Positions 6,991 through 28,024 of a DNA stretch of 64,000 bases are shown in pieces (position 1 is the stretch's first letter; each line of letters starts with the position of its first letter). The DNA lies in contig NZ_SOZD01000004.1 of assembly GCF_004519335.1 (NCBI RefSeq), positions 372,001 to 436,000 on the forward strand, given 5' to 3'. The position numbers and the translations under genes were made by a program. The notes below the pieces were generated by a model, which saw nothing but the letters and a program-made list of their open reading frames with translations, was not told the DNA's origin and searched no databases. Source of the stretch: Jiella endophytica. Lineage in GTDB: Bacteria; Pseudomonadota; Alphaproteobacteria; Rhizobiales; Rhizobiaceae.

Positions 6991-7214
6991 GACGCGTCTT
7001 TCTCGGCAGTAGAAACCAGATCAGAAGAGCGAAGACCCACACGCAGCCCTCGCCAGGGGCGCACTATGCCGACCCAAAGTTACTCTGCCGTTACAAAGCC
7101 ACCCTGCTGGGAAGTCGGCGGCGGCGGCGTGCAATTTTCGCTTCGCGAGCCACGACGGCCGGGATCATCGCAAAAGGCAATCGCCGATCATTGCTTCGGG
7201 GACGCTACGCAAAG

Positions 7215-8873: not shown

Positions 8874-9045
8874 TGCATTTCCTCCCGCCGGCAAACTGCC
8901 ATGGCGGGACGGGCGGCAGCAATCGCTCCGGCCCGGCGGGCAAGGGAGGGCGGCGCCAAGCGGGGTGTCACGGAAAGTCCAGCCCGCCTGTCCGATGTGT
9001 CCCGACCGGCGGGTCGATCACGCTTGGTCGGCAGCGGCAGTGAGG

Positions 9046-10116: not shown

Positions 10117-10222
10117 GCCGGCCGTCCTGGCCACCAGGGATTGCAGCGATCCTACACCCGACCGCCGCCGCTGACATCACCTGGCGTCAGATATATCCTG
10201 CGCCCCTGCCCAGCTGCATGCC

Positions 10223-11566: not shown

Positions 11567-11585
11567 GAGCTGTGTTTCCCGTTTG

Positions 11586-12422
11586 CTAGTCTGCGGGCAC
11601 GGTGAAGATCATTTCGACCGGAGCGATGACGCCGGCCTTGATGGCGGAGACCATGTTCTTGACCTTTTCGCCGACGGTCGGCCCCATCAGGAGATGCAGG
11701 CCGAGCGGCGCCGGCGCGGCAGAGTTTGCCGCCGATTGAACCTGTTCGAAGAAGGTGATCGCGACCTCGCGCCGATCGGTCTCGGCGAGAGATTTCAATC
11801 CGGCAGCCGCCGCGGCGTTGCGATAGACGTCGGGTTCGGCGAGCGCTGACAACGTCGCAGTCTCCGCCCAGGGCACCGGATAGACAAGTTCGCCCGCGCC
11901 GACCTTCATCACCTCGTAGACTGCGAAGGCACCGCCAGGCTTCAGGACGCGGGCAGCCTCGGAAAACAGCGCCGCCTTGTCCGGGATATTCATTCCGACA
12001 TGCAGCATCGTCGCGATGTCGAAGCGGGCGGCGTCAAAAGGGAGCGCCGTCGCACTGGCAACCTCAAAGCGGACCTTGTCGGAAAGGCCGCAGAGTTTCG
12101 TCAGATGGGTGGCGGCCTCGACATAGGCCGGCGTCAGATCGATGCCCGTTACCTTGCAGCCATAACGGCTGGCGATCGAGCGCGCCGGCCCGCCGATGCC
12201 AGACCCAATGTCGAGAAGACGGGTCTCGGCGGTAATCCCGAGCTGATCGAGGAGTCGCGCCGTCGCTTCGGCACCTCCGATGTGGAACTCGTCGACGGCT
12301 TTCAACTGGTCCGGCGTCAGATGTTCGGGGTCGACGGCCGCTGTCTTGAGGCCTTCGAGAATGCGAGGCAGAACGTCATAGGCCGCATAGTGACGTGTCA
12401 CACCGTCTTCCGAGAACGACAT
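11586..12422 (-). CDS. class I SAM-dependent methyltransferase (UbiE / sarcosine-methyltransferase-like)
   Basis: 278 residues. The SAM-binding motif I LLDIGSGIGGPARSIA is near residue 75, motif II region VTGIDLTPAYVEAA follows, and MLHVGMNIPDKAALFSEAARVLKPGGAFAVYEVM forms motifs IV-VI. The overall pattern resembles glycine/sarcosine/dimethylglycine and UbiE-type enzymes. The start at 12422 was chosen over an in-frame ATG at 12440 because GAGGGAG precedes it by eight bases. It sits between preT and preA on the same strand with a 19-base gap to preA, so it is probably cotranscribed with preA. Neither its substrate nor a reason for its place in a pyrimidine locus is evident. Confidence 0.85.
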   Translation of the reverse strand: MSFSEDGVTRHYAAYDVLPRILEGLKTAAVDPEHLTPDQLKAVDEFHIGGAEATARLLDQLGITAETRLLDIGSGIGGPARSIASRYGCKVTGIDLTPAYVEAATHLTKLCGLSDKVRFEVASATALPFDAARFDIATMLHVGMNIPDKAALFSEAARVLKPGGAFAVYEVMKVGAGELVYPVPWAETATLSALAEPDVYRNAAAAAGLKSLAETDRREVAITFFEQVQSAANSAAPAPLGLHLLMGPTVGEKVKNMVSAIKAGVIAPVEMIFTVPAD

Positions 12423-12680
12423 GGTTTGCAGCTCCCTCAAGCCAAAAGCCGACAGGTTGGCGACGGCAGCAAGTGAGCTCCGTGGGCTAGTTGATTGTCA
12501 AGTGAGTGCAAGATGCAACCTGAATGACTTTGCGGAAGAAAACCTCGCAGGTCTTTGATGTCTCGCAAAATTGCGTCCAGACGGAGGGTGCCCAGGCAAA
12601 CGCCTGTCGCTGATGTTGCTTTCGGGGACGATCTCGTCACGCCGGTCAACGGGATGTGCTCGCGCGATGCATCCGGGGTC

Positions 12681-14057
12681 TCACTCCGCCGCGACCCTGT
12701 CCGCCGCAGTCAGAGCGGCGTGGATGTCCATCGCCGCGACCTTGCCGTCCTCCACCGCGACGACGGTCAAGTCCTCGCCTTCGGCGATGCAGTCGCCGCC
12801 GGCCCAGACACCCTCCAGCGAAGTGCGCCGCGCGGCGTCGACCCTGATCCGGCCGCGCTCCAGCGCGATCCCCTCGCCTTCCGCTTCGGTCCCGTGCGGC
12901 AGGAACGTCTGGCCGATCGCCTTGAAGACCTGGTCAGCCTCGATCGTCACCGTCTCCCCTGTCAGCACTAGCTTGCCGTTCTCGATCATCGTCCGTTCGA
13001 GTTCGATCGCCGCGACGTGGCCGTCCTCGGCATGAATCCGCTTCGGCTGGAGATGGAAGCGCAGGTGGACGCCGCGGGTCGCCGCCACCTCTTGCTCGTA
13101 AGGGCTGGCATTCATCGCCTCGCGGCCGCGGCGATAGGCGATGGTCACCTCTTCCGCGCCGAGCGCCTTGGCCTGGACGGCCGCATCGATCGCCGTCATG
13201 CCGCCGCCGATGACGACGACGCGCCGGCCGACCGGCAGCCCCGAGAGATCGGCGGTCTGGCGCAGATCGGCGATCCAGGCGACGGCGTCGTGGGAGCCGC
13301 TCGAAGCCTCCCCGTCGGCGCCGAGCGCGTTGACGCCTGCAAGCCCGAGGCCAAGGAACACCGCGTCGAAGTCGCGCCGAAGGTCGGCAAGGTGGATGCC
13401 CTGGCCGAGCGCCTTGCCGGTCTCGAAGGTGATCCCGCCGATCTTCAGGAGGAACGCCACCTCTTTCTGGGCGAAATCCTCCGTCGCCTTGTAGGCGGCG
13501 ATGCCATATTCGTTGAGACCGCCCGGCTTTTCCCGGGCGTCGTAGATCGTCACGTCATGGCCCAGCATGGCGAGGCGGTGGGCGGCCGAAAGCCCGGCTG
13601 GGCCGGCGCCGACGACCGCGATTCTCCTCCCCGTGGCCGCAGCCCGCTTAAAGGGATGCTCGCCCGTCGCCATCAGGGTGTCGGTGGCATGGCGCTGAAG
13701 CATGCCGATCTGCACCGGCTTGCCCTCGGCCACCTCGCGCACGCAGACCTCTTCGCACAGCGTTTCGGTCGGACAGACCCGCGCGCACATACCACCGAGA
13801 ATGTTCTGCGACAGGATGGTCTTCGCCGCGCCGATCGGATTGCCCGCCTGGATCTCGCGGATGAACAGCGGGATGTCGATCGCCGTCGGGCAGGCGTTCA
13901 TGCAAGGGGCGTCGTAGCAGAAGTAGCAGCGATCCGCCTCGACCAGCGCCTCGTGCCGCTCGAGCGCCGGATGCAGGTCGGCAAAACCCGTGGCGAGTTC
14001 TTCGGCCGGCAGGCGTCCGGCCCTGATGTCGGGTCGGCGTGGCAGCGGATCGGACAT
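12681..14057 (-). CDS. preT: NAD-dependent dihydropyrimidine dehydrogenase subunit PreT
   Basis: 458-residue GltD-like flavoprotein that passes electrons from NADH to PreA. N-terminal cluster ligands are Cys44, 47, 52, 56 and Cys91, 95, 101, 105. The FAD site AVVGAGPAGLSAAH lies at 147-160, the second dinucleotide site VVIGGGMTAIDAA at 281-293 and GVWAGGDCIAEGEDLTVVAVEDGK near the C-terminus. The ATG at 14057 (MSDPLPRRPD) has AGAGGGA about ten bases upstream; the frame extends 14 codons further without a better signal. It is divergent from the LysR gene across about 200 bases that contain a RutR half-site. Confidence 0.94.
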   Translation of the reverse strand: MSDPLPRRPDIRAGRLPAEELATGFADLHPALERHEALVEADRCYFCYDAPCMNACPTAIDIPLFIREIQAGNPIGAAKTILSQNILGGMCARVCPTETLCEEVCVREVAEGKPVQIGMLQRHATDTLMATGEHPFKRAAATGRRIAVVGAGPAGLSAAHRLAMLGHDVTIYDAREKPGGLNEYGIAAYKATEDFAQKEVAFLLKIGGITFETGKALGQGIHLADLRRDFDAVFLGLGLAGVNALGADGEASSGSHDAVAWIADLRQTADLSGLPVGRRVVVIGGGMTAIDAAVQAKALGAEEVTIAYRRGREAMNASPYEQEVAATRGVHLRFHLQPKRIHAEDGHVAAIELERTMIENGKLVLTGETVTIEADQVFKAIGQTFLPHGTEAEGEGIALERGRIRVDAARRTSLEGVWAGGDCIAEGEDLTVVAVEDGKVAAMDIHAALTAADRVAAE

Positions 14058-14157
14058 GGCGATCGTTCCCTCTGGCTGGCCCTCGTCCCCTCGCGCCAAG
14101 GCGGCTCAGCGACCGGGATGAATGAGAATGATTCCATTTTTCGCGGCCGTCAAATTT

Positions 14158-14185
14158 TTTATCGTTTGGTCAAAAATCGAACGAT
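14158..14185. promoter_or_regulatory. candidate RutR half-site and LysR-type inverted repeat in the preT-lysR divergent region
   Basis: TTTGGTCAA at 14165-14173 repeats the right half of the RutR operator at 3743-3758; the left half of the 16-mer is degenerate. Overlapping it is an inverted repeat, ATCGTT (14161-14166) and AACGAT (14180-14185), spaced 13 bases. A second ATCGTT lies at 14224. The region could be bound by RutR for preT and by the LysR protein for its own gene. Both roles are inferred from position and partial matches. Confidence 0.4.
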
Positions 14186-14263
14186 CAACCGATCTGCTTT
14201 TTCGATTGAAACGACATGATTAAATCGTTGGATTGAACGGTTGCCGGCCACTACCTTGGCTGC

Positions 14264-15136
14264 ATGACACTCGAACAGCTCCGCATCTTCATCGCCGTCG
14301 CCGAACGCCAACACATGACCCGCGGCGCCGACGCCGCGCATGTCACCCAGTCGGCGGCGAGCAGCGCCATCGCGGCGCTGGAGCTTCGCCACGGCACCCA
14401 GCTGTTCCACCGTGTGGGCCGCGGCATCGAACTCACCGAGGCCGGCAAGCTGTTCCTCACCGAAGCCCGTGCGGTGCTCGCCAGTGCCGAGACGGCGGAA
14501 CGGCTTCTCGAGGAATTCGGCGATCTTCGCCGCGGCGCCCTCCGCCTCGTCGCCAGCCAGACGATTGCCAGCTATTGGCTGCCCGCCCGGCTCGCCCGGT
14601 TTCAGCAGCGATATCCGCAGATCGAGATCCGCCTCTCCCTCGACAACAGCGAGGGCGCCGCCGCCAAGGTGGTGGATGGCGCTGCCGAACTCGGCTTCAT
14701 CGAGGGCATCGTCGAGGCGCCGGCGCTGGCCAACTGGCGGGTCGGCGAGGACCGGATGCTGCTGGTATCGGCGACACCTGCGGGCGCCATCGATGCCGGC
14801 TGGCTGCGCGCCGCCCGATGGATCGTCCGCGAACGCGGATCGGGAACGCGGTCCTCCTTCGAGGATGCCGCCCGGCGGCTCGGCCTCGATCCGGACGCCT
14901 TCGAGATCGGCATGACGCTTCCCTCCAACGAGGCGGTCCGCACCGCCGTCGAAGCCGGGGCCGGCGTCGCCGTCCTCTCGGAGCTGGTCGTCCGCGCGGC
15001 CATCGCCACCGGACGGCTGCAGGTACTGCCATTCGACCTGCCGGCACGGCCTTTCTTCGCGCTCCGCCACAAGGAGCGCTTTCGCACGCACGCGGCAGAC
15101 GCGTTCGTGACGCTGCTCACGGAAGACGACCAATGA
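14264..15136 (+). CDS. LysR-family transcriptional regulator
   Basis: 290 residues with the standard N-terminal winged helix-turn-helix (MTLEQLRIFIAVAERQHMTR, then AAHVTQSAASSAIAALE) and a two-lobed effector domain. Its stop overlaps the start of the TDT transporter by four bases (ATGA), so the two are translationally coupled and the regulator probably controls the transporter. It is divergent from preT. Pairing with an anion exporter suggests it senses a small anion such as sulfite or a dicarboxylate, but the effector cannot be read from the sequence. Confidence 0.92.
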   Translation: MTLEQLRIFIAVAERQHMTRGADAAHVTQSAASSAIAALELRHGTQLFHRVGRGIELTEAGKLFLTEARAVLASAETAERLLEEFGDLRRGALRLVASQTIASYWLPARLARFQQRYPQIEIRLSLDNSEGAAAKVVDGAAELGFIEGIVEAPALANWRVGEDRMLLVSATPAGAIDAGWLRAARWIVRERGSGTRSSFEDAARRLGLDPDAFEIGMTLPSNEAVRTAVEAGAGVAVLSELVVRAAIATGRLQVLPFDLPARPFFALRHKERFRTHAADAFVTLLTEDDQ

Positions 15137-16284
15137 CGATGAGTCACACGCTGAAGCCCCTTCCCGGGGGGCTGCGCCCCTTCGCACGCCTCGACCATCC
15201 CCGCGAGGTCATCCGGCAGTTCACGCCGAACTGGTTCGCCGCGACGATGGGGACGGGCATCCTGTCGCTGCTCCTGCCTCAGCTTCCCCTGGCCGGGCCG
15301 CTGCTCACGCCGATCGGCGAGGCCCTGTGGTTCTTCAACATCGGCCTGTTTTCGCTGTTCTCGCTGCTCTACGCCGCCCGCTGGGTGATGTTCCGGCACG
15401 AGGCGGGCCGGGTCTTCGGCCACAACACCGTCTCGATGTTCTTCGGCACCATTCCGATGGGGCTCGCGACGATCATCAATGGCTGCCTTGCCTTCGGCAT
15501 CGCGCGGTTCGGCGAGGCGATCATTCCCGTCGCCCATGCCCTCTGGTGGGTCGACGTCGCCATGTCGCTCGCCTGCGGTGTCGTCATTCCCTATCTGATG
15601 TTCACCCGCCAGGAGCACAGCCTCGACCAGATGACGGCGGTCTGGCTGCTGCCGGTTGTCGCAGCCGAGGTCACGGGCGCCTCCGGCGGGTTGCTGGCGC
15701 CGCATCTTGCCGACGGGCAGTTCGTCGTTCTCGCGACGTCTTATATCCTCTGGGCCTATTCGGTGCCGGTCGCCTTCGCGATCCTCTCCATTCTCGTGCT
15801 GCGCATGGCACTCCACAAGCTGCCCCATGAGAGCATGGCGGCCTCCGCCTGGCTGGCGCTTGGCCCGATCGGCACAGGCGCGCTCGGAATGCTGGTTCTC
15901 GGCGGCGAAGCGCCGGCGGTGCTCGACGCCCGCGGCCTCGGCGAGATCGGCGGGGCGGCGGCAGGGATCGGCGCCATCGCCGGGCTCACGCTCTGGGGCT
16001 TCGGCCTGTGGTGGGTCGCCCTCGCCGCGCTCATCACGCTGCGCTACTGGCGCGCCGGCGTGTCGTTCAATCTCGGCTGGTGGGGCTATACCTTCCCGAT
16101 CGGCGTCTATACGGCCTCGACCTTCAAGCTCGCCGCGGTGTTCGACGCGCCCTTCTTCTGGCTGGCCGGAACGCTGCTGACCATCGTCCTCGCGACGATG
16201 TGGCTGGTCGTCGGCAGCAAGACCTTGGAGGGCGCCTGGACCGGCAAGCTGTTCGCCTGCCCTTCGCTGCCAGCAAAGGGGTGA
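15133..16284 (+). CDS. TDT-family transporter (TehA / SLAC1 / Mae1-like, anion or C4-dicarboxylate/sulfite channel)
   Basis: 383-residue inner-membrane protein with about ten hydrophobic helices. The N-terminal TPNWFAATMGTGILSLLL and GWWGYTFPIGVYTAS near residue 320 are typical of the tellurite-resistance / dicarboxylate transporter family, which includes yeast sulfite exporter Ssu1 and plant anion channel SLAC1. The substrate is not predictable. The ATG at 15133 overlaps the LysR stop, and the frame further upstream lies inside lysR. Convergent with the DUF900 gene, with a 125-base gap holding no clear terminator. Confidence 0.88.
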   Translation: MTMSHTLKPLPGGLRPFARLDHPREVIRQFTPNWFAATMGTGILSLLLPQLPLAGPLLTPIGEALWFFNIGLFSLFSLLYAARWVMFRHEAGRVFGHNTVSMFFGTIPMGLATIINGCLAFGIARFGEAIIPVAHALWWVDVAMSLACGVVIPYLMFTRQEHSLDQMTAVWLLPVVAAEVTGASGGLLAPHLADGQFVVLATSYILWAYSVPVAFAILSILVLRMALHKLPHESMAASAWLALGPIGTGALGMLVLGGEAPAVLDARGLGEIGGAAAGIGAIAGLTLWGFGLWWVALAALITLRYWRAGVSFNLGWWGYTFPIGVYTASTFKLAAVFDAPFFWLAGTLLTIVLATMWLVVGSKTLEGAWTGKLFACPSLPAKG

Positions 16285-17681: not shown

Positions 17682-18287
17682 CTATTCGTCAGGACGCGGT
17701 TCGGGCTCGCGCTTTTCCAGCGGCCGGCCGGCTTCCGCCCAGCCTTCGGTCCCGTCGGGGTACCAGTAGACCGCCTTGTAGCCCGAGGCGATGGCGCGCC
17801 TGGCGGCATTGTAGCTCATCCAGCAGTCGCGCTTGCAGTAGAACAGCACCGGCGCAGATTTCTCGCCCTTCGTCGCACTCTCGATGCCGTCGAAGAAATA
17901 GCGCTCCATCACCGGGGCAAGTTCGCCATAGCCGGTGTCGACCAGCCAGATCGAGCCGGGAATGTCCTTGCGCGGCTCCGGCCGCCAGATCGTGCCTTCT
18001 GGCAGGTTCTTCGGCCGCGGCACCCGCGGCAGGACGTCGATGAACGGCACACCGCCGGCATGCAGCCGAACCGCCTCCTCCGTATCGACCACCGTCCCGC
18101 CCGTCAGCGTCGAGGGCACCGGCGCGCGATAGTCCTCCATGCGGTAGCCGTCCGGCTCCGGCACGGCCTCACCGGCCGCAGGACTTTCGGCAAAAGCGGG
18201 GATCGCCGCCACCGCCGCGACGATCAGCGACAGCCTGAAGACCGCAGATGTCCGCCGCACCTGCCGGCCGGTTCCCGCAATGCCCAT
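17682..18287 (-). CDS. PQQ-dependent catabolism-associated CXXCW motif protein (rhodanese-like, periplasmic)
   Basis: 201 residues beginning with a signal peptide (VFRLSLIVAAVAAIPAFAES). The body is a rhodanese-like fold in which the active loop reads FYCKRDCWMSYNAARRA, giving the CxxCW motif that defines this family (TIGR03865 type). The family occurs next to XoxF, MxaF or PQQ alcohol dehydrogenases, but its reaction is not established; redox or cysteine-persulfide chemistry on the quinoprotein chain is a reasonable guess. The ATG at 18287 lies one base after the xoxJ stop, which fixes the start and shows coupling. It is the last gene of the leftward xoxF-G-J operon. Confidence 0.85.
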   Translation of the reverse strand: MGIAGTGRQVRRTSAVFRLSLIVAAVAAIPAFAESPAAGEAVPEPDGYRMEDYRAPVPSTLTGGTVVDTEEAVRLHAGGVPFIDVLPRVPRPKNLPEGTIWRPEPRKDIPGSIWLVDTGYGELAPVMERYFFDGIESATKGEKSAPVLFYCKRDCWMSYNAARRAIASGYKAVYWYPDGTEGWAEAGRPLEKREPEPRPDE

Positions 18288-18288
18288 C

Positions 18289-19269
18289 TCAGCCTTTCGG
18301 GCCGGCCGCCGGCGCGTCCGCCTTCGTCTCAGGCATCGCTGCTCCCGCCTTGCCGGAAGGCTTGATGGGGTTGTCCTGCTCGTCGAGCAGCGGCACGCCA
18401 TAGGAGAGGAGGATGTCGTTGATGGCGTCCTGGTTCTCGGCGATGGTGCGGTTCAGCGTCCGCTTCCATTCCTGGTCGGACGGCCTGACGCCCATGGTGA
18501 TGCGGAAGGCCATCGCCGGACCCTTGGTCTCGTGGGTCAGCGGCACGACGGAATAAGCCCCCTTCGCCTGCTTGGCATAGTATCCCGCCATCGGCCCCCA
18601 CAGAACCCCGGCGTCGATCTTGCCGCTGGCAAGGTCGTCGATCATCGCCTTGGCGGAATTGTCGATCCGTGTGTCGATGACCAGCGGATAGGACTTCGCC
18701 CTGGCCATCAGCCCGGCCCGGGCGATGTAGGTCCCGGGCGGCGTGCCGGCGATGACGCCGATGCGCTTGCCCTTGAGCTTTTCGTCCTCGAGCGTCGTGA
18801 CACCCTCGAGATCGCCGCCCTTCGGCGTCACCAGAGCATAGGCCGTGCGATAATACGCGTTGGTATTCTGGACCAGCTCGTCGCCCTGCGGATAGCTCAT
18901 GATGACGTCGCAGAGATTGGAGCCGAGCGTCATCCGCACGAAACCCGTCGCCTGCGGGAAATAGGTGTAGGCGACGTCGCTGCGGCCGAGCTTGCCGGCG
19001 AGGAACTTGGCGACGGCCTGCTCGAAACCCTCGCCCGCCTGGTTCGAGAAGGGCATGTTGTTGGGGTCGGCGCAGACCCTCAGGATATCCGGATCGACGA
19101 GTTCCACCTCGCTGCCGAACTCGCGGTCGGCCTGTGCCACGGCGACGCTCGAAAGCGCCGCCAGCGACAGGACCGCAGCCGAGATGCGCAGGATTGCACG
19201 GCAGAGCCGCCGTTCGGGTCGGCCCGCCGGGCTAGCCTGCCGGCGGGCGTTGTCGAGGTGAACCGTCAT
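18289..19269 (-). CDS. xoxJ: quinoprotein dehydrogenase-associated periplasmic binding protein XoxJ (MxaJ-like)
   Basis: 326 residues: an n-region rich in Arg, a hydrophobic helix (AILRISAAVLSLAALSSVAVAQA) and then an extracellular solute-binding protein fold beginning LRVCADPNNMPFSNQAGEGFE, the diagnostic opening of the MxaJ/XoxJ group. KLKGKRIGVIAGTPPGTYIAR and DDLASGKIDAGVLWGPMAGYYAK are also typical. It is believed to interact with or activate XoxF rather than serve an ABC importer; no transporter genes are nearby. It lies three bases after xoxG and one base before the CXXCW gene. The C-terminus has a short Pro/Ala tail. Confidence 0.9.
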   Translation of the reverse strand: MTVHLDNARRQASPAGRPERRLCRAILRISAAVLSLAALSSVAVAQADREFGSEVELVDPDILRVCADPNNMPFSNQAGEGFEQAVAKFLAGKLGRSDVAYTYFPQATGFVRMTLGSNLCDVIMSYPQGDELVQNTNAYYRTAYALVTPKGGDLEGVTTLEDEKLKGKRIGVIAGTPPGTYIARAGLMARAKSYPLVIDTRIDNSAKAMIDDLASGKIDAGVLWGPMAGYYAKQAKGAYSVVPLTHETKGPAMAFRITMGVRPSDQEWKRTLNRTIAENQDAINDILLSYGVPLLDEQDNPIKPSGKAGAAMPETKADAPAAGPKG

Positions 19270-19272
19270 CGA

Positions 19273-20052
19273 TCAAAATCCCAGGCAGCTGTACTCTTCT
19301 TCCTGCGCCGGCTTGTTGTTCCCGGCCCGCTTCGGCTCGCCGCGACCGACGACACCATCGGCGCGGGCGCGCAGATAGATGTAGATCGCATCCATCGAGC
19401 ACATGACGTTCGGATCTTCGCCCCAGGCCGGCATCACCGAGTTGCCGGACGGGTTCCACTTGTTCTTCTGGCCGGAGACGACGATGCCGGCGAAGTCGTA
19501 ATAGGAGAGATCCTGCAGCTGGCTGGTCAGGTTCGGCGCGAAGGACGAGCCGAGGCCGTCGGGACCATGGCACTGCATGCAGTTGGCCATGTATTTCTTG
19601 TAGCCGCGCCAGGTGTACCAGTCCGCCTTGCCGTCGGCCTCGATCTTGTAGGTCGGATTGCCCGACGGATCGGCATATTTGCCGAGATCGCCTTCGGTGG
19701 GCTCGTTGCCCTCGGTCGCGGTGTCCTTGGAAGGATGGGCGTCCGGCTTCATGTGGTCGGCATCGGCCATCTTGGCGTCATCGCTGACCGGCGTCGTCGG
19801 CGCTTCCTTGGTGCCTGCGGGGGCGCTTGCGCCATCTGCCGCAGCGCTCTTCCCGCCGCCGGCCGCAGCAGCCCCGTTTCCGCCCGCTGCCTGGCCGGAC
19901 GTCGCTGCCGCCGCGGCCGCGCCGCCGCTCCCCTGATCCGGGGCAGTCTGGCCCTGCGGCACGATGGTGGTGCCGGAAGTCTGGGCGAAGGCAAGACCGG
20001 ACACCGAAAGAACCAGGGCGCCGGCAAGAGCAATCATCTTCGTCGTCATCAT
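19273..20052 (-). CDS. xoxG: XoxG, c-type cytochrome electron acceptor of XoxF (4-Cys methanol-related type)
   Basis: 259 residues with a signal peptide (MIALAGALVLSVSGLAFAQ). One haem site CMQCH uses Cys158, Cys161 and His162, and Met207 in NSVMPAWG is the probable sixth ligand. Two more cysteines, Cys218 and Cys256, fit the 4-Cys cytochrome family linked to methanol oxidation (TIGR03874 type). Between the signal peptide and the cytochrome fold is an unusually long low-complexity stretch (about residues 25-125) rich in Ala, Gly, Pro and Asp, probably a flexible linker. It accepts electrons from XoxF and passes them to the respiratory chain. Second gene of the operon; the start may be the second Met. 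Confidence 0.9.
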   Translation of the reverse strand: MMTTKMIALAGALVLSVSGLAFAQTSGTTIVPQGQTAPDQGSGGAAAAAATSGQAAGGNGAAAAGGGKSAAADGASAPAGTKEAPTTPVSDDAKMADADHMKPDAHPSKDTATEGNEPTEGDLGKYADPSGNPTYKIEADGKADWYTWRGYKKYMANCMQCHGPDGLGSSFAPNLTSQLQDLSYYDFAGIVVSGQKNKWNPSGNSVMPAWGEDPNVMCSMDAIYIYLRARADGVVGRGEPKRAGNNKPAQEEEYSCLGF

Positions 20053-20292
20053 TTCCTCAACTACTGGCGCGGAACGCGCATCGCATGTCGGCTGGCCTTG
20101 CGCCCGTCGCTTCGGGGCGGGTCATGCCGGTTGCCGGAGGCAGCCGGTGCAGGCGGCCGTTCGGGGCATCCGCCACTGCCTTCGGGAGGTGAGAACGGCC
20201 GGACCTTGCCGCGGCGATGCCCTGATACGCGCCACGTCGCGACCGGATCTCCGCAATTCGGGAACAAGTCCCAGTTCCACCACCCCGGCAGC

Positions 20293-20327
20293 GAACGGGC
20301 CCCGCGATCGCTTCGCGGGGCCCGTTC
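20293..20327 (-). terminator. strong hairpin downstream of xoxF
   Basis: A perfect 14-bp stem (20293-20306 with 20314-20327) and 7-base loop lie 22 bases past the xoxF stop, in the 296-base gap before xoxG. There is no clear T-run on the minus strand, so it may partly terminate or protect the xoxF transcript and set a higher level of xoxF than of xoxGJ. Confidence 0.6.
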
Positions 20328-20348
20328 CTTGTCATGCCGTCTGACCGA

Positions 20349-22193
20349 CTACTTCGAGGCGGTCTGGTCGGGAACGGTGAAGACCGTCAGCTGACCACCG
20401 AGGGCGGTGTACTTCGACAGCGCCGCGTAGCCGCCGACCGCGCCAAGGCCGGCATTCGGGTCGGTGAGGCCGGCCGCGAGGCCGATGCCGGCCCAGCCGC
20501 CGATGCCGGACAGGATGCCGACATACTGCTTGCCGTCATTCTCGTAGGTCATCACGTTGCCGATGATGCCCGACGGGGTCTTGTACTTGTAGAGTTCCTT
20601 GCCCGTCTCGGCATCGACCGCCTTCAGATAACCCTCGAGGGTACCGTAGAAGACGATGCCGCCCTTGGTGGCGAGGGCGCCCGACCACACCGAGAACTGC
20701 TCGGGCAGCGACCAGACGATCTTGCCCTTGCCGGCATCCCAGGCGATGAAGTTGCCCATGCCGCCATGGCTGTTCGGCGCAGGATACATCGACAGCGTCG
20801 CGCCGACGTAAGGCTGGCCGGCCGTGTAGGCGACGCGGAACGGCTCGTAGTCCATGCAGACGTGGTTGGTCGGCACGTAGAACAGCTTGGTGTCCGGCGA
20901 ATAGGCCGCCGGCTGCTGGTCCTTGGTGCCGAGCGCGGCCGGGCAGATGCCCGTCGAGTTCACGTCTTCGCCGTTGTGCTCGGTCGAGTACTCGGCGACG
21001 ACCTTCGGACGACCGTAGGTCTCGGAGCTCTTGTCCATGTCGACTTCGGTGGCCCAGTTCACCGCCGGATCGTACTTCTGGGCGACCAGCAGTTCGCCGC
21101 TCTCGCGATCGAGGGTGTAGGCGAAGCCGTTGCGGTCGAAGTGGACGAGCGCCTTGTGGTCCTTGCCGTCGACGGAGACGTCGGCGAGGATCATCTCGTT
21201 GACGCCGTCATAGTCCCACTCGTCATGCGGGGTCATCTGGTAGACCCACTTCGCCTCGCCGGTGTCGGCGTCGCGAGCATTGATCGTCATCGACCACTTG
21301 TTGTCGCCCGGGCGCTGCGCCGGGTTCCAGGTCGAGGGGTTGCCGGTGCCGTAATAGACGAGGTTCAGGTCCGGATCATAGGCCGTCCAGCCCCAGGTGG
21401 CGCCGCCACCGATCTGCCACTGGTCGCCTTCCCAGGTCTTCACCGAGGAGTCCTTGCCGACCGGCTTGCCGAGTTCGGTGGTCTTCTCCGGATCGATCAG
21501 CATTTCCTCGTCCGGACCGGTCGAATAGGCCTTCCAGACTTCCTTGCCGTCGGCGAGGCTGTAGGCGGTCATACGGCCGCGTACACCGAACTCGCCGCCG
21601 GAGATGCCGACGAGCACCTTGTCCTTGACGACCTGCGGCGCGGCGGTGCCGGTCTCGCCCTTGGAGGGATCGCCGTTCTTCACCGACCAGACGACTTCGC
21701 CGCTATCGGCATTGAGCGCCACCAGCGTGGTGTCGGCCTGGTCGAGGATGATCAGAGCCGGACGGTCGCCATCGGCCGGAGCATAGGCAACGCCGCGGTT
21801 GACCGTGTCGCAGCACATGACCGGGATGACGTTCGGATCCTGCTTGGGCTCGTATTTCCACTTGATGGTGCCCTCGTCCTTGAGGTCGAGCGCATAGACG
21901 ATGTTCGGGAACGGCGTGTGCACGAACATCGTGTCGCCGATCACCAGAGGGTTGCCTTCATGGCCGCGCAGCACGCCGGTCGAGAACGACCAGGCGGGGA
22001 CCATGTTGGCGACGTTGTCCTTGTTGATCTTGTCGAGCGAGGAGTAGCGGTTGTTCGCGTAATCGCCGGTGGGCATCACCCACTGGCTGCCGTTCTTGGC
22101 CATGTCCTGCAGGCCTTCGGCCGCCGTGGCGACACTCCCGAGGCCAATCAGCAGGCTCGAAGCGAGCGCGGCCTTCGTAATCGATTTCAGCAT
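20349..22193 (-). CDS. xoxF: lanthanide-dependent PQQ methanol dehydrogenase XoxF
   Basis: 614-residue periplasmic eight-bladed quinoprotein with signal peptide ([17 protein letters not shown]). Visible active-site residues are the vicinal disulfide Cys127-Cys128 (VMCCDT), Glu201 (GGEFG), Asn285 (GTGNPS), catalytic Asp327 and Asp329 in WDYDG. The second Asp is the lanthanide ligand that separates XoxF from calcium-type MxaF, which has Ala there. W-motifs such as GKIVWSLP mark the blades. It oxidises methanol (often also formaldehyde and other primary alcohols) using PQQ and a light rare earth. The ATG at 22193 has GGGAGGA seven bases before it. First gene of xoxF-G-J-CXXCW. No PQQ synthesis genes are in the window. 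Confidence 0.96.
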
Positions 22194-22915
22194 AAACGGT
22201 CCTCCCAAGGAACTGAGTTCACATGTCGACCGCGTGAGTGCAGCCAACATGGTGCCAGCGATGAATGGGGAAGGCTTCCGGCAGCGTGTCACGACCTCCA
22301 ATAGGGGTCTTGGTGGGCACCGTTGATCATTACCCTACCAGTGGCCTTCGAGATTCGGGGCGCTCCCAACACCCCGATCTTGAAGCCGGAAACCATGAGG
22401 CACCCTAGTGCGGGAATTTTTCCTGTGCAAGCACTGTTATCGGCTTTTTCTAGGTGCACTGCACAAAATCACTGGTTCGTCATGCCGCGATATTTATCTC
22501 CCTCTAGGATATCCAAGCGTATTACCAGACTGCGGTCGGATCAATTCGCCGTCCGGCCGGATCACTCTCCATCTTCCAAGTCTAGCTGGGGGATCGTCGG
22601 GTAAGATCACCCCGCCAAGACCTTATCTAGACAACGCCGAGATTTCTCCCGCTGCCGCGCTACCCGATCCGAAGCCGGTTGTTGGACGGCGACTTTTACC
22701 GATGTTTGCGCCCTCGCAGCGGATTTTCCGGAAGGTGTCCATGGTGCAATGCAACAAAAGTCAGGGCAGTTTGACGCAGGACGAGGGCGCGAAGGCTCTT
22801 CGTCTTTCGCATTGCCGGACCGATCGTCCATCATGAGCGCGCGGGGCGCCCGGGAGAGGCTCACCCGCAGAGCTCGGCGGGAAAGCCGCGCCTTGAAGGA
22901 AAGGGAGGACAATTC
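22194..22915. promoter_or_regulatory. 722-base divergent control region between xoxF and the zinc metallohydrolase gene
   Basis: This long non-coding stretch separates two divergent transcripts of the quinoprotein system and is less GC-rich than its flanks, especially 22320-22620. I see no convincing gene; short open frames in it lack ribosome sites and normal composition. A small inverted repeat (CGGGG ... CCCCG, about 22358-22375) and A/T-rich segments near 22430-22510 may be regulator or promoter sites. Expression of xoxF is known in other methylotrophs to depend on lanthanide supply, so this is the expected place for such control, but no known operator was recognised. Confidence 0.5.
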
Positions 22916-23845
22916 ATGACGCGGACGATCCTGTTCGCCACGCTGGCGGCCCTGATTCTCGCCGTGCCGATGCCGGCGAAGGCGACCGAGCCTCTCGCCG
23001 TCACCGAAATCGCACCGGGCGTCTATGTCCATCATGGCGAGGTCGCCGAGACGACACCACAGAATCAGGGCGACATCGCCAATATCGGTTTCATCGTCGG
23101 CGATGATGCGGTGGCGATGATCGACAGCGGCGGCAGCGTGCCGGTCGGCGAGGCGGCGCTCGCCGCGATCCGGGCGGTCACCGACAAGCCGGTGAAATAC
23201 CTGATCAACACCCACATGCATCCCGACCACACCTTCGGCAATCAGGTGTTCAAGGCGGCCGGTGCGACGATCCTCGGCCATCGGCGGCTGCCGGCGGCGC
23301 TCGGTGCTCGGGCGGATTTCTACAAGCAGTCGATGCGCGAGCAGCTGGGGCCCGAACTTGACGATCAGGTGACGATCACCGGGCCGGACGACACCGTGGC
23401 AAAGGAGCGGCGGATCGACCTCGGCGGCCGGACCATCGTCCTCAAAGCCTGGGAAACCGCCCATACCGACAACGACCTGACGGTCTATGACGAGAAGACC
23501 CGGACGCTGTTTGCCGGCGACCTTCTGTTCATGCAGCATTGCCCGGTGCTCGACGGCAGCCTGAAGGGCTGGCTCGATCAGATCCCGGCGCTGAAGGACG
23601 TTCCGGCGGCACGCGTCGTTCCCGGCCACGGACCGGTGAGCGCGCCATGGCCGCAGGCGATCGACGCCGAAACCCGCTATCTCGAGACGCTCGCGAGCGA
23701 CATCCGCCAGGCGATCAGGGACGGCGTCCCGCTCGCCGATGCGGTGCCGGAAGCCGCTGCCAGCGAGAGCGACAAATGGCAGCTCTTCGACGACTACAAC
23801 CCGCGCAATGCGACGGCGGCCTTCGCCGAACTCGAATGGGAGTGA
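22916..23845 (+). CDS. quinoprotein relay system zinc metallohydrolase (MBL fold, periplasmic)
   Basis: 309 residues with a signal peptide (TRTILFATLAALILAVPMPAKA). The metallo-beta-lactamase zinc motif is NTHMHPDHTFGN (His100, His102, Asp104, His105), with later ligands in WETAHTDND, FAGDLLF and VPGHGP. The family (SoxH-related, TIGR04559 type) is found with SoxYZ-like carriers and XoxF or other PQQ dehydrogenases. It is predicted to hydrolyse a product, perhaps a thioester or persulfide adduct on the carrier protein, but no substrate is established. GGGAGGA stands seven bases before the ATG. It is followed by the SoxYZ-like carrier gene on the same strand, 185 bases on. Confidence 0.87.
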   Translation: MTRTILFATLAALILAVPMPAKATEPLAVTEIAPGVYVHHGEVAETTPQNQGDIANIGFIVGDDAVAMIDSGGSVPVGEAALAAIRAVTDKPVKYLINTHMHPDHTFGNQVFKAAGATILGHRRLPAALGARADFYKQSMREQLGPELDDQVTITGPDDTVAKERRIDLGGRTIVLKAWETAHTDNDLTVYDEKTRTLFAGDLLFMQHCPVLDGSLKGWLDQIPALKDVPAARVVPGHGPVSAPWPQAIDAETRYLETLASDIRQAIRDGVPLADAVPEAAASESDKWQLFDDYNPRNATAAFAELEWE

Positions 23846-24030
23846 CGGCCCCGCCGCACCAAATCAACGTCACGACCCGGGAAAATTCCGCGTCGCCATG
23901 CCGGTCTTTTGAAGGTGGCGGCCCTTGCCGGTGCTGCAATTGCGGTCAAAATGGGTGGCGGTGGGCGCCTGCCGCCGCGAAACGGGAGTTCGCGGCAGCA
24001 AGCCGATGCAGCCCCAAGGGAGGAAGACAC

Positions 24031-24879
24031 ATGGCCGGAAATCCGATGGTTGGCCGCAGCGCCGCAGGCCGCAGAACCGCGATCGCGCTGCTTTCGGCGC
24101 TGGCGATCGGCGGAGCCGGCCTCGCCCGCGCCGAGACTGCGATGTCGCCCGAACAGAAGGCCGCCGAGGCGGATTCGGCCTGGCCTGAGCTGAAGCCCGA
24201 CCTTTTCGGCGACCGGCCGCTGATCGACGGCACGGACACCGTGTCGATCGAGGCGCCGAAGCGCGCCACCGACCCGGCCGTGGTGCCGGTGAAGCTGAGC
24301 TTTGATCCGAAGATGGAGGTGCGGAAGGTCACCCTCGTCATTGACGAGAACCCCTCGCCCGTCGCGGCCACCTTCGACTTTGCCGAGGGCGCCGGGGTCG
24401 CCGAGCTTTCGACCCGGGTGCGGGTCAACGCCTATACCGACATCCATGCCGTCGCCGAGACGGCGGACGGCAAGCTCTATGTCACCAAGACCTTCGTGAA
24501 GGCGGCCGGCGGCTGCGCGGCGCCGGCCGCGAAGGACCCGGAAGTCGCCGCCCGCGAGATGGGCAAGATGAAGATGCGCGAGTTTTCCAGCGACGATCCC
24601 TCGCTGCACGAGGCGCAGCTGATGATCCGCCATCCCAACAATTCCGGCCTGCAGAAGGACCAGGTGACGCTGCTCTACATCCCTGCGCATTTCATCACCG
24701 ATCTCTCGGTGGAAAAGGGCGGCAAGGCGCTGTTCACCATGACCGGCGGCATCTCGATCTCCGAGGATCCGAGCTTCAGGTTCAAATATCGTGCCGACGA
24801 CGCCGGCCCGTTCCACGCCAAGGCGTCCGACACCGAGGGCCAGGTGTTCGAGAAGACCTTCGACAGCGGCCAGTCCTGA
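24031..24879 (+). CDS. quinoprotein dehydrogenase-associated SoxYZ-like carrier
   Basis: 282 residues with a signal peptide (AIALLSALAIGGAGLARAET). The N-terminal half is SoxY-like and ends in AAGGCAAPAAKDP, where Cys162 corresponds to the swinging-arm cysteine of SoxY. The C-terminal half (MIRHPNNSGLQKDQ onward) is SoxZ-like, so it is a natural SoxY-SoxZ fusion (TIGR04557 type). In Sox systems the cysteine carries the substrate between enzymes; here it probably carries an intermediate between the quinoprotein chain and the zinc hydrolase. AAGGGAGGAA precedes the ATG at 24031. Convergent with the 4-Cys protein gene across the repeat-filled gap. Confidence 0.87.
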   Translation: MAGNPMVGRSAAGRRTAIALLSALAIGGAGLARAETAMSPEQKAAEADSAWPELKPDLFGDRPLIDGTDTVSIEAPKRATDPAVVPVKLSFDPKMEVRKVTLVIDENPSPVAATFDFAEGAGVAELSTRVRVNAYTDIHAVAETADGKLYVTKTFVKAAGGCAAPAAKDPEVAAREMGKMKMREFSSDDPSLHEAQLMIRHPNNSGLQKDQVTLLYIPAHFITDLSVEKGGKALFTMTGGISISEDPSFRFKYRADDAGPFHAKASDTEGQVFEKTFDSGQS

Positions 24880-25008
24880 ACGGCCTGGCGGCGCCTCAAG
24901 GCAGGTTCGGCTGGGGGCAGGTCAGGCGGTAGCGGCGCTGGGCGGGACTGAGGCAGGAAAAAGCGTCGGTGCAGCTTGGTGCATTGAGCTCCTATCATGG
25001 GCGTTGAC

Positions 25009-25361
25009 GATCCCCTCGCCCTTCGAGGCTCGCTTCGCTCGCACCTCAGGATGAGGGGATCTTCGATGCCCGCCTGCTCGACTCGCGCCACCCCAAGGCC
25101 GCGATCGCTTGGGAACTGTCGTCATCCCGGCTTCGGCCGGGATCCACTGCTCTGCGCCAGGACAGCCCCATGGAACGGGAAAAAGGTGGGCCATCCTTTA
25201 CGATGAGACTGCAACGATTTGGCAAGGATCCCGGGTCAGCGGCCGGGATGACGAGCGCGTTGACAAGAAAAGGCGGCGGCAAAACGTGGCCGGCTCGACC
25301 GGAACAGAGATCCCCTCATCCTGAGGTGCGAGCGAAGCGAGCCTCGAAGGGCGAGGGGATC
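25009..25361. repeat. nested inverted repeats in a convergent intergenic gap
   Basis: Outer arms 25009-25062 and 25308-25361 are exact reverse complements over 54 bases. Inside them, 25121-25145 and 25227-25252 form a second, imperfect inverted pair (GTCATCCCGG ... CCGGGATGAC type). The inner sequence resembles the widespread alphaproteobacterial GTCATCCCGGC intergenic palindrome. The whole 548-base gap 24880-25427 lies between the converging SoxYZ-like and 4-Cys genes and holds no gene. A bidirectional terminator or boundary role is likely; the origin may be mobile palindromic repeats. No transposase is present. Confidence 0.85.
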
Positions 25362-25427
25362 TTCGGCACTTCACATCAGTATGAACGGGATCGCCGGCGT
25401 CACAGCGGGATCGCCGGCGCTGAACCG

Positions 25428-26051
25428 TCACTCGAAGCAGCGGATCTCTGCCTCGGCCTGGGCGCGGCGGAGGTCGCCGATCGCCGCCTTCGACTCGGCC
25501 GAATCGCGGAAAATGCTGCCCTTCTCGCCGGTCACCTGGCCCATCGACAGCCATGTCGAGGCCTCGACATAGCGATCATAGGGGATGATCGAGGCAACGA
25601 CGTCGAAGGAGCAGGAGCACTGCTTCAGCGCCGTGCTGGTGTTGCCGTTGGTGGCCATGCAGGCAAAGACGTAGTCGGCGATCGCCGTCGTCGGATAGTC
25701 GGCGCGGGTGGTCGAGGCGCCTGACGCCGTCGGGAAGTGAACGATGCCGGCGCCCTCGCCGGTAAGCGAGCCGGCTTCGCCGTCGCCGCCCGCAGCCGTG
25801 CCGGCCTCACCATCCGGCCGGGTCCCCTGTGGCATCGTGCCTGGCGCCATCGCACCCTGCGCCGTCGCACCCTGTGGCACCGCTCCCGGCGCGACCGACC
25901 CCGGCATCATGGTCCCGGACGAGGTGGCGGCAGGGGCCTCGGTGCCGGGATTTCCTGCCGTCTGGGCATGGCCGGCCAGTGGCGCCGCCATAAGCATCGG
26001 AGCGGCGAGAAGTGCCGCAGCCAGCCCGGCGCTTGCGTTGGAAATGGTCAT
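25428..26051 (-). CDS. secreted 4-cysteine protein of unknown function in the xox cluster
   Basis: 207 residues, not a family I can name. A signal peptide (GLAAALLAAPMLMAAPLAGHAQ) is followed by a low-complexity linker with repeated PGxVPQG / APGTMPQG units (about residues 40-95). A compact C-terminal domain (about 120-205) carries four cysteines: Cys131 (YVFACMATNG), Cys145 and Cys147 (KQCSCSFD) and Cys205 (EIRCFE). The CxC pair suggests a disulfide, metal or persulfide site. GGGAGGAA precedes the ATG. It lies 121 bases after the beta-propeller gene on the same strand, so it is probably the last gene of the mxaD-propeller operon. Cysteine content and location suggest a part in the quinoprotein relay (inference). 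Confidence 0.75.
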   Translation of the reverse strand: MTISNASAGLAAALLAAPMLMAAPLAGHAQTAGNPGTEAPAATSSGTMMPGSVAPGAVPQGATAQGAMAPGTMPQGTRPDGEAGTAAGGDGEAGSLTGEGAGIVHFPTASGASTTRADYPTTAIADYVFACMATNGNTSTALKQCSCSFDVVASIIPYDRYVEASTWLSMGQVTGEKGSIFRDSAESKAAIGDLRRAQAEAEIRCFE

Positions 26052-26172
26052 CGTCAGCTTCCTCCCGAAGCCGCCCTTTCGGGTGGTTTCCCGTCAGATA
26101 TGTCGCGGCATCACCGGCTTGCCCGGTTTTCCCAAAGATTTGGCCGGGAAAGGTTCCCGATTTCGCCGGCCG

Positions 26173-27180
26173 TCATTTCGCTGCGGCGGTCGGGGCCGCC
26201 CGGACGAAAGCGCCGAAGGCCCGCGGACCGTCCGGCACGTCGACGCTGCCGACGACCTCGAGACTGCCCGCATCGAGCTTGAGCAGCGTGTTGGCGAACC
26301 AGTTCGCCACATAGACGAAGCGGCCGTCGCTGCCTGAGGCGATCCCCTCCGGATAGTCGCAGCAGTCGAGCTGCCCGATCCGCTCGCCGCTCTCGGCGTC
26401 GAACACCGTCAGCGTGCCGCCATACTGGTCGGTGACGAAGACCTTCCCCGTCGTTTCGACGGCATCGTAGGGATGCGAGCCGACCGGCACCGTGCGAAGG
26501 ACGAAATGGCCCCGCGCATCGACGACGCTGACGGAATCCGAGCCGACATTGGCGGCATAGACCCGCGTTCCGTCCGGCGAGAAGGCGACGCCGAAGGGCC
26601 GCTCGCCGGCCACGACCCGGGCGATCACCTCGCCGGTCTTCGCCGCGAAGAACGAAATCTGGTTGGAATCCCGGTCGGCGGTGACGACGACGTTCCCATC
26701 CGCGGAGACGGCAACGCCCGAGGGGGACTGGCCGGTCTCGAAATCGCCGACGACCTTGCGGCTTTCCGGATCGACGAGGAGCAGCCGGTGCGAATACCAG
26801 TCGGCGACATAGACCGGCGAGCCCGACGGATGCACCGCGATGCCGAGCGGCCCGCCGCCGACCTTGACCTCTCCGACCACCTCGCGCTTCGCCGTATCGA
26901 CGATGGCGATCTGCTGGGAATCCGGCTGCGACACATAGGCGCGCGTGCCGTCGCGGCTCACCGCAATGCCGGCAGGCTTGCCCGGAACAGCGATGGTCTT
27001 TTCGACAGTCATCGTGTCGAGATCGACGAAGGAGAGGCTTCCGGCCTCCTGGCTCGTCACATAGGCGACGTCGCCTGCCGCCGCGCCCGACACCCCTGCG
27101 CCGAGCAGAAGAGCCGAAAGGCTGAGCGCCGCCGCCCGCCGCGGTGCGGCGCCGGCAAGCCGCAGGAGGCGCCCGCTCAC
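26173..27180 (-). CDS. PQQ-dependent catabolism-associated YVTN-family beta-propeller protein
   Basis: 335 residues with a signal peptide (ALSLSALLLGAGVSGAAAG). It is made of seven or so propeller repeats of about 42 residues, each with a YVTN/YVAN/YVAD core (AYVTSQEAGSLSFVD, AYVSQPDSQQIAIVD, VYVADWYSHRLLLVD, VYAANVGSDSVSVVD, VYVANWFANTLLKLD). This matches the TIGR03866-type protein linked to PQQ catabolism. The role is unknown, perhaps a scaffold. In other bacteria this family stands beside an ABC exporter; none is found here. Its start overlaps the MxaD-like gene stop by four bases. Confidence 0.87.
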   Translation of the reverse strand: MSGRLLRLAGAAPRRAAALSLSALLLGAGVSGAAAGDVAYVTSQEAGSLSFVDLDTMTVEKTIAVPGKPAGIAVSRDGTRAYVSQPDSQQIAIVDTAKREVVGEVKVGGGPLGIAVHPSGSPVYVADWYSHRLLLVDPESRKVVGDFETGQSPSGVAVSADGNVVVTADRDSNQISFFAAKTGEVIARVVAGERPFGVAFSPDGTRVYAANVGSDSVSVVDARGHFVLRTVPVGSHPYDAVETTGKVFVTDQYGGTLTVFDAESGERIGQLDCCDYPEGIASGSDGRFVYVANWFANTLLKLDAGSLEVVGSVDVPDGPRAFGAFVRAAPTAAAK

Positions 27181-27728
27181 GAGCCGGATTCGACCTTGTT
27201 CTTCAGGCTTTCGAGCCCTTCGGTGATGAACTCGGTGACGCCCTTCACCGAGGCCTCGTCGTTGAGATTGGCCGGCGGCTCGTTGTTCGGATAGCCGCGA
27301 TAAAAGGCCGCGCGCCAGGTGACGTCGGACTTCGCGCCACCATCCGCCGGCTTCACGGTGATCGTCGAGGAATAGTTCGTCGCCGGCAGGAGATCGACGT
27401 TCACATGGCCGATGAAGGTCGAATAGCTCATCTTGTCGGCGTCGTATTTGGAGAGTTCCTCCTCCATCATGCCGCCCGACGTGAACCCGAGCGTGCGGAC
27501 GGAGCCCTTCTCGTTGCCCTTGGTCGCGTCGGTCATGGCAATGCGCGGGTGCCAGGACATGTCGCCGAAATTCTGAATGACGGCCCAGACCTTGTCCGGC
27601 GCGGCGTCGATGGTGATGGATTCGCTCGCCTTCTGGCGCGTCGGACCATGCGCCGCGGCGATGCCGGGCAGGATCATCAGCGCCACGGCAAAGGCGGCGA
27701 GTTTCGTGAACACCGATTTCTCGAACAA
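27177..27728 (-). CDS. MxaD-like SRPBCC-family periplasmic protein
   Basis: About 183 residues. The signal peptide (FEKSVFTKLAAFAVALMILPGIAAAHG) is followed by an SRPBCC fold: ESITIDAAPDKVWAVIQNFGDMSWHP, then KGSVRTLGF and a C-terminal helix GVTEFITEGLESLKNKVE. MxaD was reported to aid electron transfer between methanol dehydrogenase and its cytochrome. The TTG at 27728 is preferred because GAGGAG lies nine bases before it and the signal peptide then starts cleanly. A GTG at 27770 is an alternative that adds 14 polar residues. First gene of the operon that continues with the beta-propeller and 4-Cys protein. Confidence 0.85.
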   Translation of the reverse strand: MFEKSVFTKLAAFAVALMILPGIAAAHGPTRQKASESITIDAAPDKVWAVIQNFGDMSWHPRIAMTDATKGNEKGSVRTLGFTSGGMMEEELSKYDADKMSYSTFIGHVNVDLLPATNYSSTITVKPADGGAKSDVTWRAAFYRGYPNNEPPANLNDEASVKGVTEFITEGLESLKNKVESGS

Positions 27729-28024
27729 GCGGCCAGTCTCCTCTTCCGATTCGGTGCCCACCCGAACCACGGCCAGCGCGGACCCTAGTCAGATCGCCGA
27801 CGAAGGGAAAGACCTCGTCTCGAAGCCCTCCAGCGATCGACCACGATTTACTCTTACGTTCGCGTCAATTATATTTCGGTCACGAGCTCTCGCCGTGGAG
27901 GATGGCGGCGGGCAGTGCAAGCAATGATACGCAAAGACGCCGCAGTGCCGGCACAATTGCCGGCTTCGACGCTGCGGCATCCGCGCCGAGACGAGGCGCC
28001 ACCAGACGATCGGGAGGACGATCC

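Follow-up and report, generated by a model that had tools for sequence, protein, structure and literature searches.

A XoxF locus of Jiella endophytica and the distribution of its four-cysteine protein and sulfur-type helper genes

Two open questions in the field are how pyrroloquinoline quinone (PQQ) and a lanthanide are loaded into XoxF and why sulfur-type helpers accompany lanthanide enzymes; the locus described here raises both. It lies in a stretch of 64,000 nucleotides of the Jiella endophytica genome (5.25 Mb, 28 contigs), referred to as the window (G000:C23:372001-436000; contig NZ_SOZD01000004.1). The locus belongs with the lanthanide-type methanol oxidation loci built around XoxF and is a fresh example of an already published arrangement. 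All nine genes of an earlier note, which was made from the sequence alone, were found in the order claimed, and they form three blocks: xoxF-xoxG-xoxJ and a CXXCW protein gene (minus strand, 17682-22193), a hydrolase gene and a carrier gene (plus strand, 22916-24879), and genes for an MxaD-like protein, a propeller and a 4-Cys protein (minus strand, 25428-27770). Below, the 4-Cys protein is called C4, the CXXCW protein, carrier and hydrolase are called the triad, G-numbers are surveyed genomes and L-numbers are loci or stretches.

Co-distribution of C4 and XoxF

We found that C4 (25428..26051, minus strand) is inherited together with XoxF, mostly in linkage with it, though not always. It was followed with a profile from ten aligned cores (A1) taken from XoxF loci, with clear matches (E 1e-14 or better), and in our class survey of 231 Alphaproteobacteria genomes XoxF proper was defined by a profile score of at least 853, the next enzyme scoring 587. 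C4 was present in 12 of these genomes and XoxF in 12, with 11 common to both. XoxF occurred without C4 in G007, where the contig ends beside the carrier, at the place where the sister genome G204 has C4. The sole C4 genome without a found XoxF, G111, contains C4, carrier, hydrolase and fae, and no dehydrogenase was found in it; both XoxF and C4 are present in G112 and G022. In the order survey, a second draw of 120 genomes with at least G000 and G058 common to both draws, XoxF (at least 62% identity) was found in 32 genomes and C4 in the identical 32. Genomes G258, G298, G328 and G340, whose sole methanol dehydrogenase is 50-55% identical to the window XoxF, have no C4.

Within the order, the distance between C4 and XoxF is below 5 kb in 18 of the 32 genomes and below 21 kb in 26, with the remaining copies (6/32) located on another contig, some of these short, or more than 300 kb away; the carrier lies less than 5 kb from C4 in 18/32. 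Genomes that lack XoxF also lack C4, both in comparisons inside one genus (G310 versus G340) and in comparisons inside families (G000 and G324 versus G251 and G293; G345/G242; G288/G245; G294 and G325 versus G254). A distant C4 copy has pqqE nearby in G294, as a fragment at the locus edge, and by eye likewise in G325, while glutathione-formaldehyde dehydrogenase is near C4 in G345 and fae is 1.6 kb from C4 in G196. C4 was also found in 126 plasmid records, including Sinorhizobium, Azospirillum, Rhizobium and Paraburkholderia, being a hypothetical protein or unannotated in the 40 plasmid matches listed, and the neighbours of six plasmid copies examined include XoxF or another PQQ dehydrogenase, the carrier, the hydrolase, fae or mch. 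Carrier and hydrolase genes neighbour C4 in Azoarcus, Azospirillum and Ruegeria. The C4 gene is also present in Paracoccus alcaliphilus DSM 8512.

C4 has a hydrophobic N-terminus (judged by eye), a low-complexity stretch and a conserved helical core of 91 residues at about 25434-25703, with the cysteine pattern C-x13-C-x-C-x57-C, in which the four cysteines are invariant in 62/62 distinct cores. That the protein is new, as had been claimed, agrees with a Pfam and NCBIfam scan of ten members, which yielded isolated weak hits to unrelated families and nothing more, and a PDB sequence search gave no match up to E 1; C4 is described here by its co-distribution with XoxF, its cysteines and a structural model. 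The model predicts five helices (predicted local distance difference test, pLDDT, 92.6). A kinship to the cat allergen Fel d 1 (best template modelling score 0.53, root-mean-square deviation 4.8-4.9) was taken as noise, and a role as lanthanide binder was rejected, D34 being the one fully invariant acidic residue with no obvious carboxylate site. MxaH is the third gene after mxaD and mxaE; in the mxa cluster of G310 the gene that follows the propeller encodes another protein (by eye like von Willebrand factor A) and not C4, this being one cluster in which the equation with MxaH was judged by gene order. We found no published description of C4 in a literature search that included PMC12628762 and was too narrow to prove absence.

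Directly upstream of C4 and on the same strand, 18 of the 30 C4 loci examined in the order encode a protein of about 220 residues (A3), which is likewise upstream of C4 in Sinorhizobium meliloti, Ruegeria, Paracoccus and Azoarcus (examples are L154:1871-2584, minus strand, and L137:8345-9070, L140:8327-8998 and L136:8270-8920, plus strand). Its consensus is GNPxxxxFLExDVRxMxxxxGGSPxYxRNRIR, and no Pfam or NCBIfam family was found for it with six members scanned. It had no match in the window or in L003-L024, and in the window the propeller and MxaD-like genes occupy its place.

The triad and the dehydrogenases that it accompanies

The triad beside PQQ dehydrogenases has already been published (PMC12997753 and PMC11237559, each drawn on here in part), and NCBIfam family names already link it to these enzymes; two other papers, PMC7391723 and PMC11520305, yielded nothing useful on the triad. 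The CXXCW protein of the window (17682..18401, minus strand), a PQQ-associated protein, scores 218 bits with TIGR03865 (cut-off 128) and 27.1 bits with Pfam Rhodanese (cut-off 22.2), its Cys189 aligns weakly to Cys63 of YgaP (E 0.043), and as judged by these matches it is rhodanese-like. The hydrolase (22916..23845, plus strand) is a SoxH-type protein of the metallo-beta-lactamase (MBL) fold, termed quinoprotein relay system zinc metallohydrolase 2, which scores 420 bits with TIGR04559 (cut-off 280); its HxHPDH motif and three more His, Asp and His ligands are kept in 33 to 35 of 35 aligned sequences, and the MBL metal motif is complete.

The carrier (24031..24879, plus strand) is a fused SoxYZ-like protein that scores 284 bits with TIGR04557 (cut-off 140) and is matched by both Pfam SoxY and Pfam SoxZ (run from 24079). 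Its sole cysteine, on a GGCAAP arm, had been numbered Cys162, which is right when counted from the ATG at 24031 (codon 24514-24516), and the GGC arm motif is invariant in 22/22 aligned carriers. The AlphaFold2 model (pLDDT 89.7) matches solved SoxY and SoxZ chains and would place Cys162 in a loop between the domains, in a region of falling confidence. We rejected the window carrier as a canonical Sox thiosulfate carrier, given its fusion, its internal GGCAAP and a TIGR04488 score of 74 versus 125 bits. No second SoxY-like protein was found in the window genome with the TIGR04557 profile at E 0.001, and therefore the carrier has no thiosulfate-oxidising Sox system to serve there. In many other genomes of the class, the same profile also yields lower-scoring matches that are SoxY-like. 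Fused carriers occur in stretches without a dehydrogenase at L195, L200, L206, L208 and L209, and carrier-hydrolase pairs do so at L120 (G160) and L115 (G060), with the arms GGCSTP and GGCSSP; several genomes have three or four carrier matches, and the carrier family thus has paralogues in other contexts.

Across the 231 genomes of the class, 19 had a match over the carrier cut-off, 17 of which were fused; the other two, G165 and G072, were set aside, as the sole passing match holds a stop and ends in GGCGG, corresponding to separate soxY and soxZ. The hydrolase was over cut-off in 11 genomes and the CXXCW protein in 6, all of them fused-carrier genomes. Within the order, the fused carrier was found in all 32 XoxF genomes (G337 with a partial match only) versus 5 of the 88 XoxF-less genomes, or 9/88 when four stop-containing matches are counted. 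The co-occurrence of carrier and hydrolase with XoxF, which had been put forward as a point on which the idea would stand or fall, exceeds chance when relatedness is ignored. Carriers in G258, G298 and G328 are far from XoxF proper, but other DxD enzymes are present.

An extra Asp two residues past the catalytic Asp (DxD) marks lanthanide-type enzymes. We examined 93 dehydrogenases over cut-off besides that of the window, in stretches of up to 20 kb and with at most six candidates scored per genome, by which some enzymes went unseen; Asp was present at the lanthanide position in 50 and absent in 43. A SoxYZ match lay in the stretch in 13/50 DxD versus 0/43 non-DxD enzymes (Fisher test, p = 1.5e-4, relatedness ignored). 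The match in L091 is an unfused SoxY with a GGCGG end, which leaves 12/50 DxD enzymes with a fused carrier nearby. Vicinal cysteines are present in 86/93 dehydrogenases and do not predict the carrier. Around 11 calcium-type MxaF genes of the order (DYA, all with the CC pair), no carrier, hydrolase, CXXCW protein or C4 was found in the stretches, and the propeller was present in 10/11 and MxaD relatives in 11/11. The association of the triad with enzymes that are predicted to be of the lanthanide type is strong and not absolute, and the triad tracks such enzymes more closely than it does the vicinal disulfide, its proposed object. At L179:8899-10923 (G340), a PQQ dehydrogenase carries DVWGFD, with Gly replacing the usual catalytic Asp, and is followed by XoxG-like and CXXCW genes.

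A three-layer reading and its rivals

We read the locus as three layers, namely oxidation by XoxF, XoxG and XoxJ, a sulfur-handling triad, and an accessory block of MxaD-like protein, propeller and C4, and we consider this reading about as likely to be right as wrong. From what is established for their families, XoxF would oxidise methanol to formaldehyde, XoxG would accept the electrons and XoxJ would aid assembly. The CXXCW protein, carrier and hydrolase would form a periplasmic sulfur-handling side unit, in which the rhodanese-like protein may move sulfane sulfur, Cys162 may hold sulfur on the SoxY-like arm and the hydrolase may release it, and sulfur nucleophiles would thereby be kept away from the lanthanide-PQQ site, or their effect on it mended, while the enzyme matures or afterwards. 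The third block would supply accessory proteins, among which C4, presumably exported, most likely helps XoxF to fold, to load its cofactor or to stay stable. We regard C4 as a probable factor for the maturation or stability of XoxF specifically. Our bolder proposal, whose chances we place a little below even, is that C4, in many lineages together with the protein of about 220 residues, is an obligate factor of XoxF and not of MxaF, acting as a disulfide-stabilised periplasmic chaperone or cofactor loader that has been overlooked on account of its small size and lack of a name. Following XoxF and not MxaF, C4 gives the loading question one gene that can readily be deleted in tractable strains, Sinorhizobium meliloti among them.

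From the single arm cysteine and the MBL-fold hydrolase next to an alcohol oxidase, the earlier note had suggested that Cys162 carries either the aldehyde product or a sulfur species, which hydrolysis then sets free, and that formaldehyde would in this way not enter the cell in free form; it asked whether fae or glutathione-formaldehyde dehydrogenase genes are missing where the carrier is present. They are not: fae (E 1e-20) was found in 9/231 genomes of the class, and all nine carry the fused carrier (Fisher test, p = 5.5e-12, relatedness ignored). Glutathione-formaldehyde dehydrogenase over cut-off was present in 7/17 fused-carrier genomes versus 111/214 others, showing no association, and one or the other gene occurs in 15/17 fused-carrier genomes, neither being found in G142 and G160 at the thresholds used. 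The window genome itself has two fae and two glutathione-formaldehyde dehydrogenase matches, the latter (G000:C11:17842-18945 and G000:C24:260095-261198) with equal scores and being either a true or an assembly duplicate. With all nine fae genomes having it, the carrier accompanies the free-formaldehyde pathway and is no substitute for it. Carriers also stand beside DxD alcohol dehydrogenases other than XoxF, which together with the fae co-occurrence contradicts the claim, and a rhodanese-like partner suits sulfur better than an aldehyde. In the portion of PMC6414531 used here, the product of M. extorquens XoxF1 is formaldehyde and not formate. The aldehyde carrier was rejected on the co-occurrence of fae and glutathione-formaldehyde dehydrogenase; we hold the aldehyde relay to be highly improbable, and the formaldehyde-bypass reading can be dropped. 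A sulfur role for the carrier is possible, considering its SoxY and SoxZ folds and the rhodanese-like CXXCW partner.

The consulted parts of PMC12997753 suggest, among other things, that the triad forms the vicinal disulfide of PQQ dehydrogenases or restores it. This fits the CC pair, which each of the 12 DxD enzymes near a fused carrier possesses, and according to the same source a thioredoxin-like gene adjoins the triad in M. extorquens; the carrier is, however, near only 12/86 CC enzymes, near 0/43 non-DxD enzymes though all 43 have CC, and in 0/11 MxaF stretches, all with CC. Seven enzymes were counted without CC, of which at least L093 and L091 are gapped there, and one of the seven has a SoxY nearby, which is unfused. 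We consider this explanation unlikely. A similarly small chance is given to the triad being a general periplasmic sulfur detoxifier that is merely co-regulated with alcohol oxidation, a notion related to the protection from thiosulfate on which PMC11237559, as far as excerpted, speculates. It would account for carriers without a dehydrogenase in the stretch or in the genome as searched, and for the inhibition by thiosulfate of H. denitrificans growth on methanol, which is cited in the excerpted text of PMC12997753 and PMC11237559, but the difference between XoxF genomes and the others in the order is tighter than a general detoxifier predicts. Lastly, C4 could be co-inherited solely by riding in the same methylotrophy gene block, as its proximity to XoxF (below 21 kb in 26/32) and its plasmid copies would allow; against this, C4 is still present in the six genomes where it lies on another contig or more than 300 kb away, and XoxF and C4 are absent together within a genus and within families, and we regard such hitchhiking as improbable.

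Several observations weigh against the three-layer reading and the role proposed for C4. The triad is not obligatory for XoxF, as the XoxF genomes G112 and G022 gave no fused-carrier match in the class profile search, and carriers also occur away from lanthanide-type enzymes: G257 has carrier and hydrolase with only a WDFS dehydrogenase found, G111 and G160 have carriers with no dehydrogenase found, in G340 some 2 kb separate a carrier from a WDYS enzyme, and a carrier of G310 adjoins the MxaD/propeller end of an mxa cluster, about 10 kb from MxaF. Six weaker CXXCW matches sit in genomes without a fused carrier. In the part of PMC12997753 consulted, random-barcode transposon sequencing of P. 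putida without lanthanides gave minimal phenotypes, and the presence of sulfur on Cys162 is something that we infer. C4 has no fold relative, Foldseek returning nothing below E 1, and it was not found in the 20.7-kb stretch of L007 despite xoxF, the rest of that genome not having been searched. The genome surveys cover one class, with Betaproteobacteria reached by plasmid matches alone, and the Fisher values ignore shared ancestry, several of the contrasts falling within a family or genus.

The remaining genes of the locus and known systems

The window XoxF (20349..22193, minus strand, with the ATG likely at 22193 in an open reading frame that reaches 22301) is over the TIGR03075 cut-off with 753 bits and has XoxF 6oc5 as its top PDB match (1032 bits). 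The lanthanide-site motif attributed to it is borne out as DEWDYDGV, vicinal cysteines are present as well (VMCCDT), and by sequence match and DxD motif the enzyme is assigned as a lanthanide methanol dehydrogenase. XoxJ (18289..19269, minus strand), a periplasmic binding-protein-like assembly factor, scores 288 bits with TIGR03871 versus a cut-off of 212. For the cytochrome c XoxG (19273..20052, minus strand) the label fits by position, by its CxxCH motif (CMQCH) and by Pfam cytochrome c, while TIGR03874 stays slightly under cut-off (157.4 versus 161.75 bits); its haem domain is preceded by an extended N-terminal region of low complexity, about 100 residues in length, in which Ala, Gly and charged side chains are frequent. 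The YVTN-type beta-propeller (26173..27180, minus strand), of the kind seen with MxaD-like genes in mxa loci, is upheld as a propeller by TIGR02276 repeats over cut-off, and the narrower family TIGR03866 is not reached (155 bits, far under the cut-off of 287). The gene at 27177..27770 (minus strand), which we take to be MxaD-like following the earlier note, matches Pfam Polyketide_cyc2 with 102.5 bits.

The closest relatives of the window carrier in a contig search belong to Jiella, Aurantimonas and neighbouring genera, and we compared 22 related loci (L003-L025, minus the frame-broken L024). The CXXCW protein, XoxJ, XoxG, XoxF and carrier are each present in 22/22, the hydrolase in 20/22 (missing from L015 and L018) and C4 in 21/22, with L007 as the exception. 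In L011, L012, L014, L016, L019 and L025, neither a propeller gene nor an MxaD-like gene was found next to C4. In L007 (Jiella sonneratiae), xoxF, xoxG, xoxJ, CXXCW, hydrolase and carrier are present, and the propeller and MxaD-like genes are absent from the stretch along with C4. In L021 (Jiella mangrovi), the MxaD-propeller-C4 block and adjoining acyl-CoA dehydrogenases (10826-15816) are inverted relative to other Jiella loci. In L024 (Jiella pelagia; about 5000-11200), the carrier, XoxF and XoxG matches lie in broken or short frames, which are pseudogenes or sequencing errors, in a record titled as a complete genome.

Among known systems, pSymB of Sinorhizobium meliloti 1021 (L136) and Ruegeria sp. 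AD91A (L140) likewise hold C4, carrier, hydrolase, XoxF, XoxG and XoxJ together, and they differ in that the protein of about 220 residues precedes C4, whereas in the window the MxaD-like gene and propeller do. The pair of MxaD-like gene and propeller is shared with the mxa cluster of the calcium methanol dehydrogenase. Canonical SoxYZ (2ox5, 2oxg, 4uwq) has the SoxY and SoxZ folds and the GGC arm in common with the window carrier, but its arm is a terminal GGCGG, in contrast to the fused window carrier with a GGC[AST]AP-like arm in mid-chain. As described in the parts of PMC11237559 used here, soxYZ-S2 and soxYZ-S4 of lucinid symbionts likewise combine fused soxYZ and soxH beside a PQQ alcohol dehydrogenase or xoxF; these symbionts are sulfur oxidisers that also encode soxB, and the likeness is by description and not by sequence. 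The account in PMC12997753, as far as drawn on, associates the triad with enzymes that have neighbouring cysteines, whereas in our survey it followed DxD rather than the vicinal cysteines. In the same account, the ped cluster of Pseudomonas putida (PP_2666, PP_2677, PP_2678, pedH) likewise contains a rhodanese, a SoxYZ-like carrier, a SoxH-like hydrolase and a lanthanide alcohol dehydrogenase, the enzyme there being of the PedH type and that of the window a XoxF.

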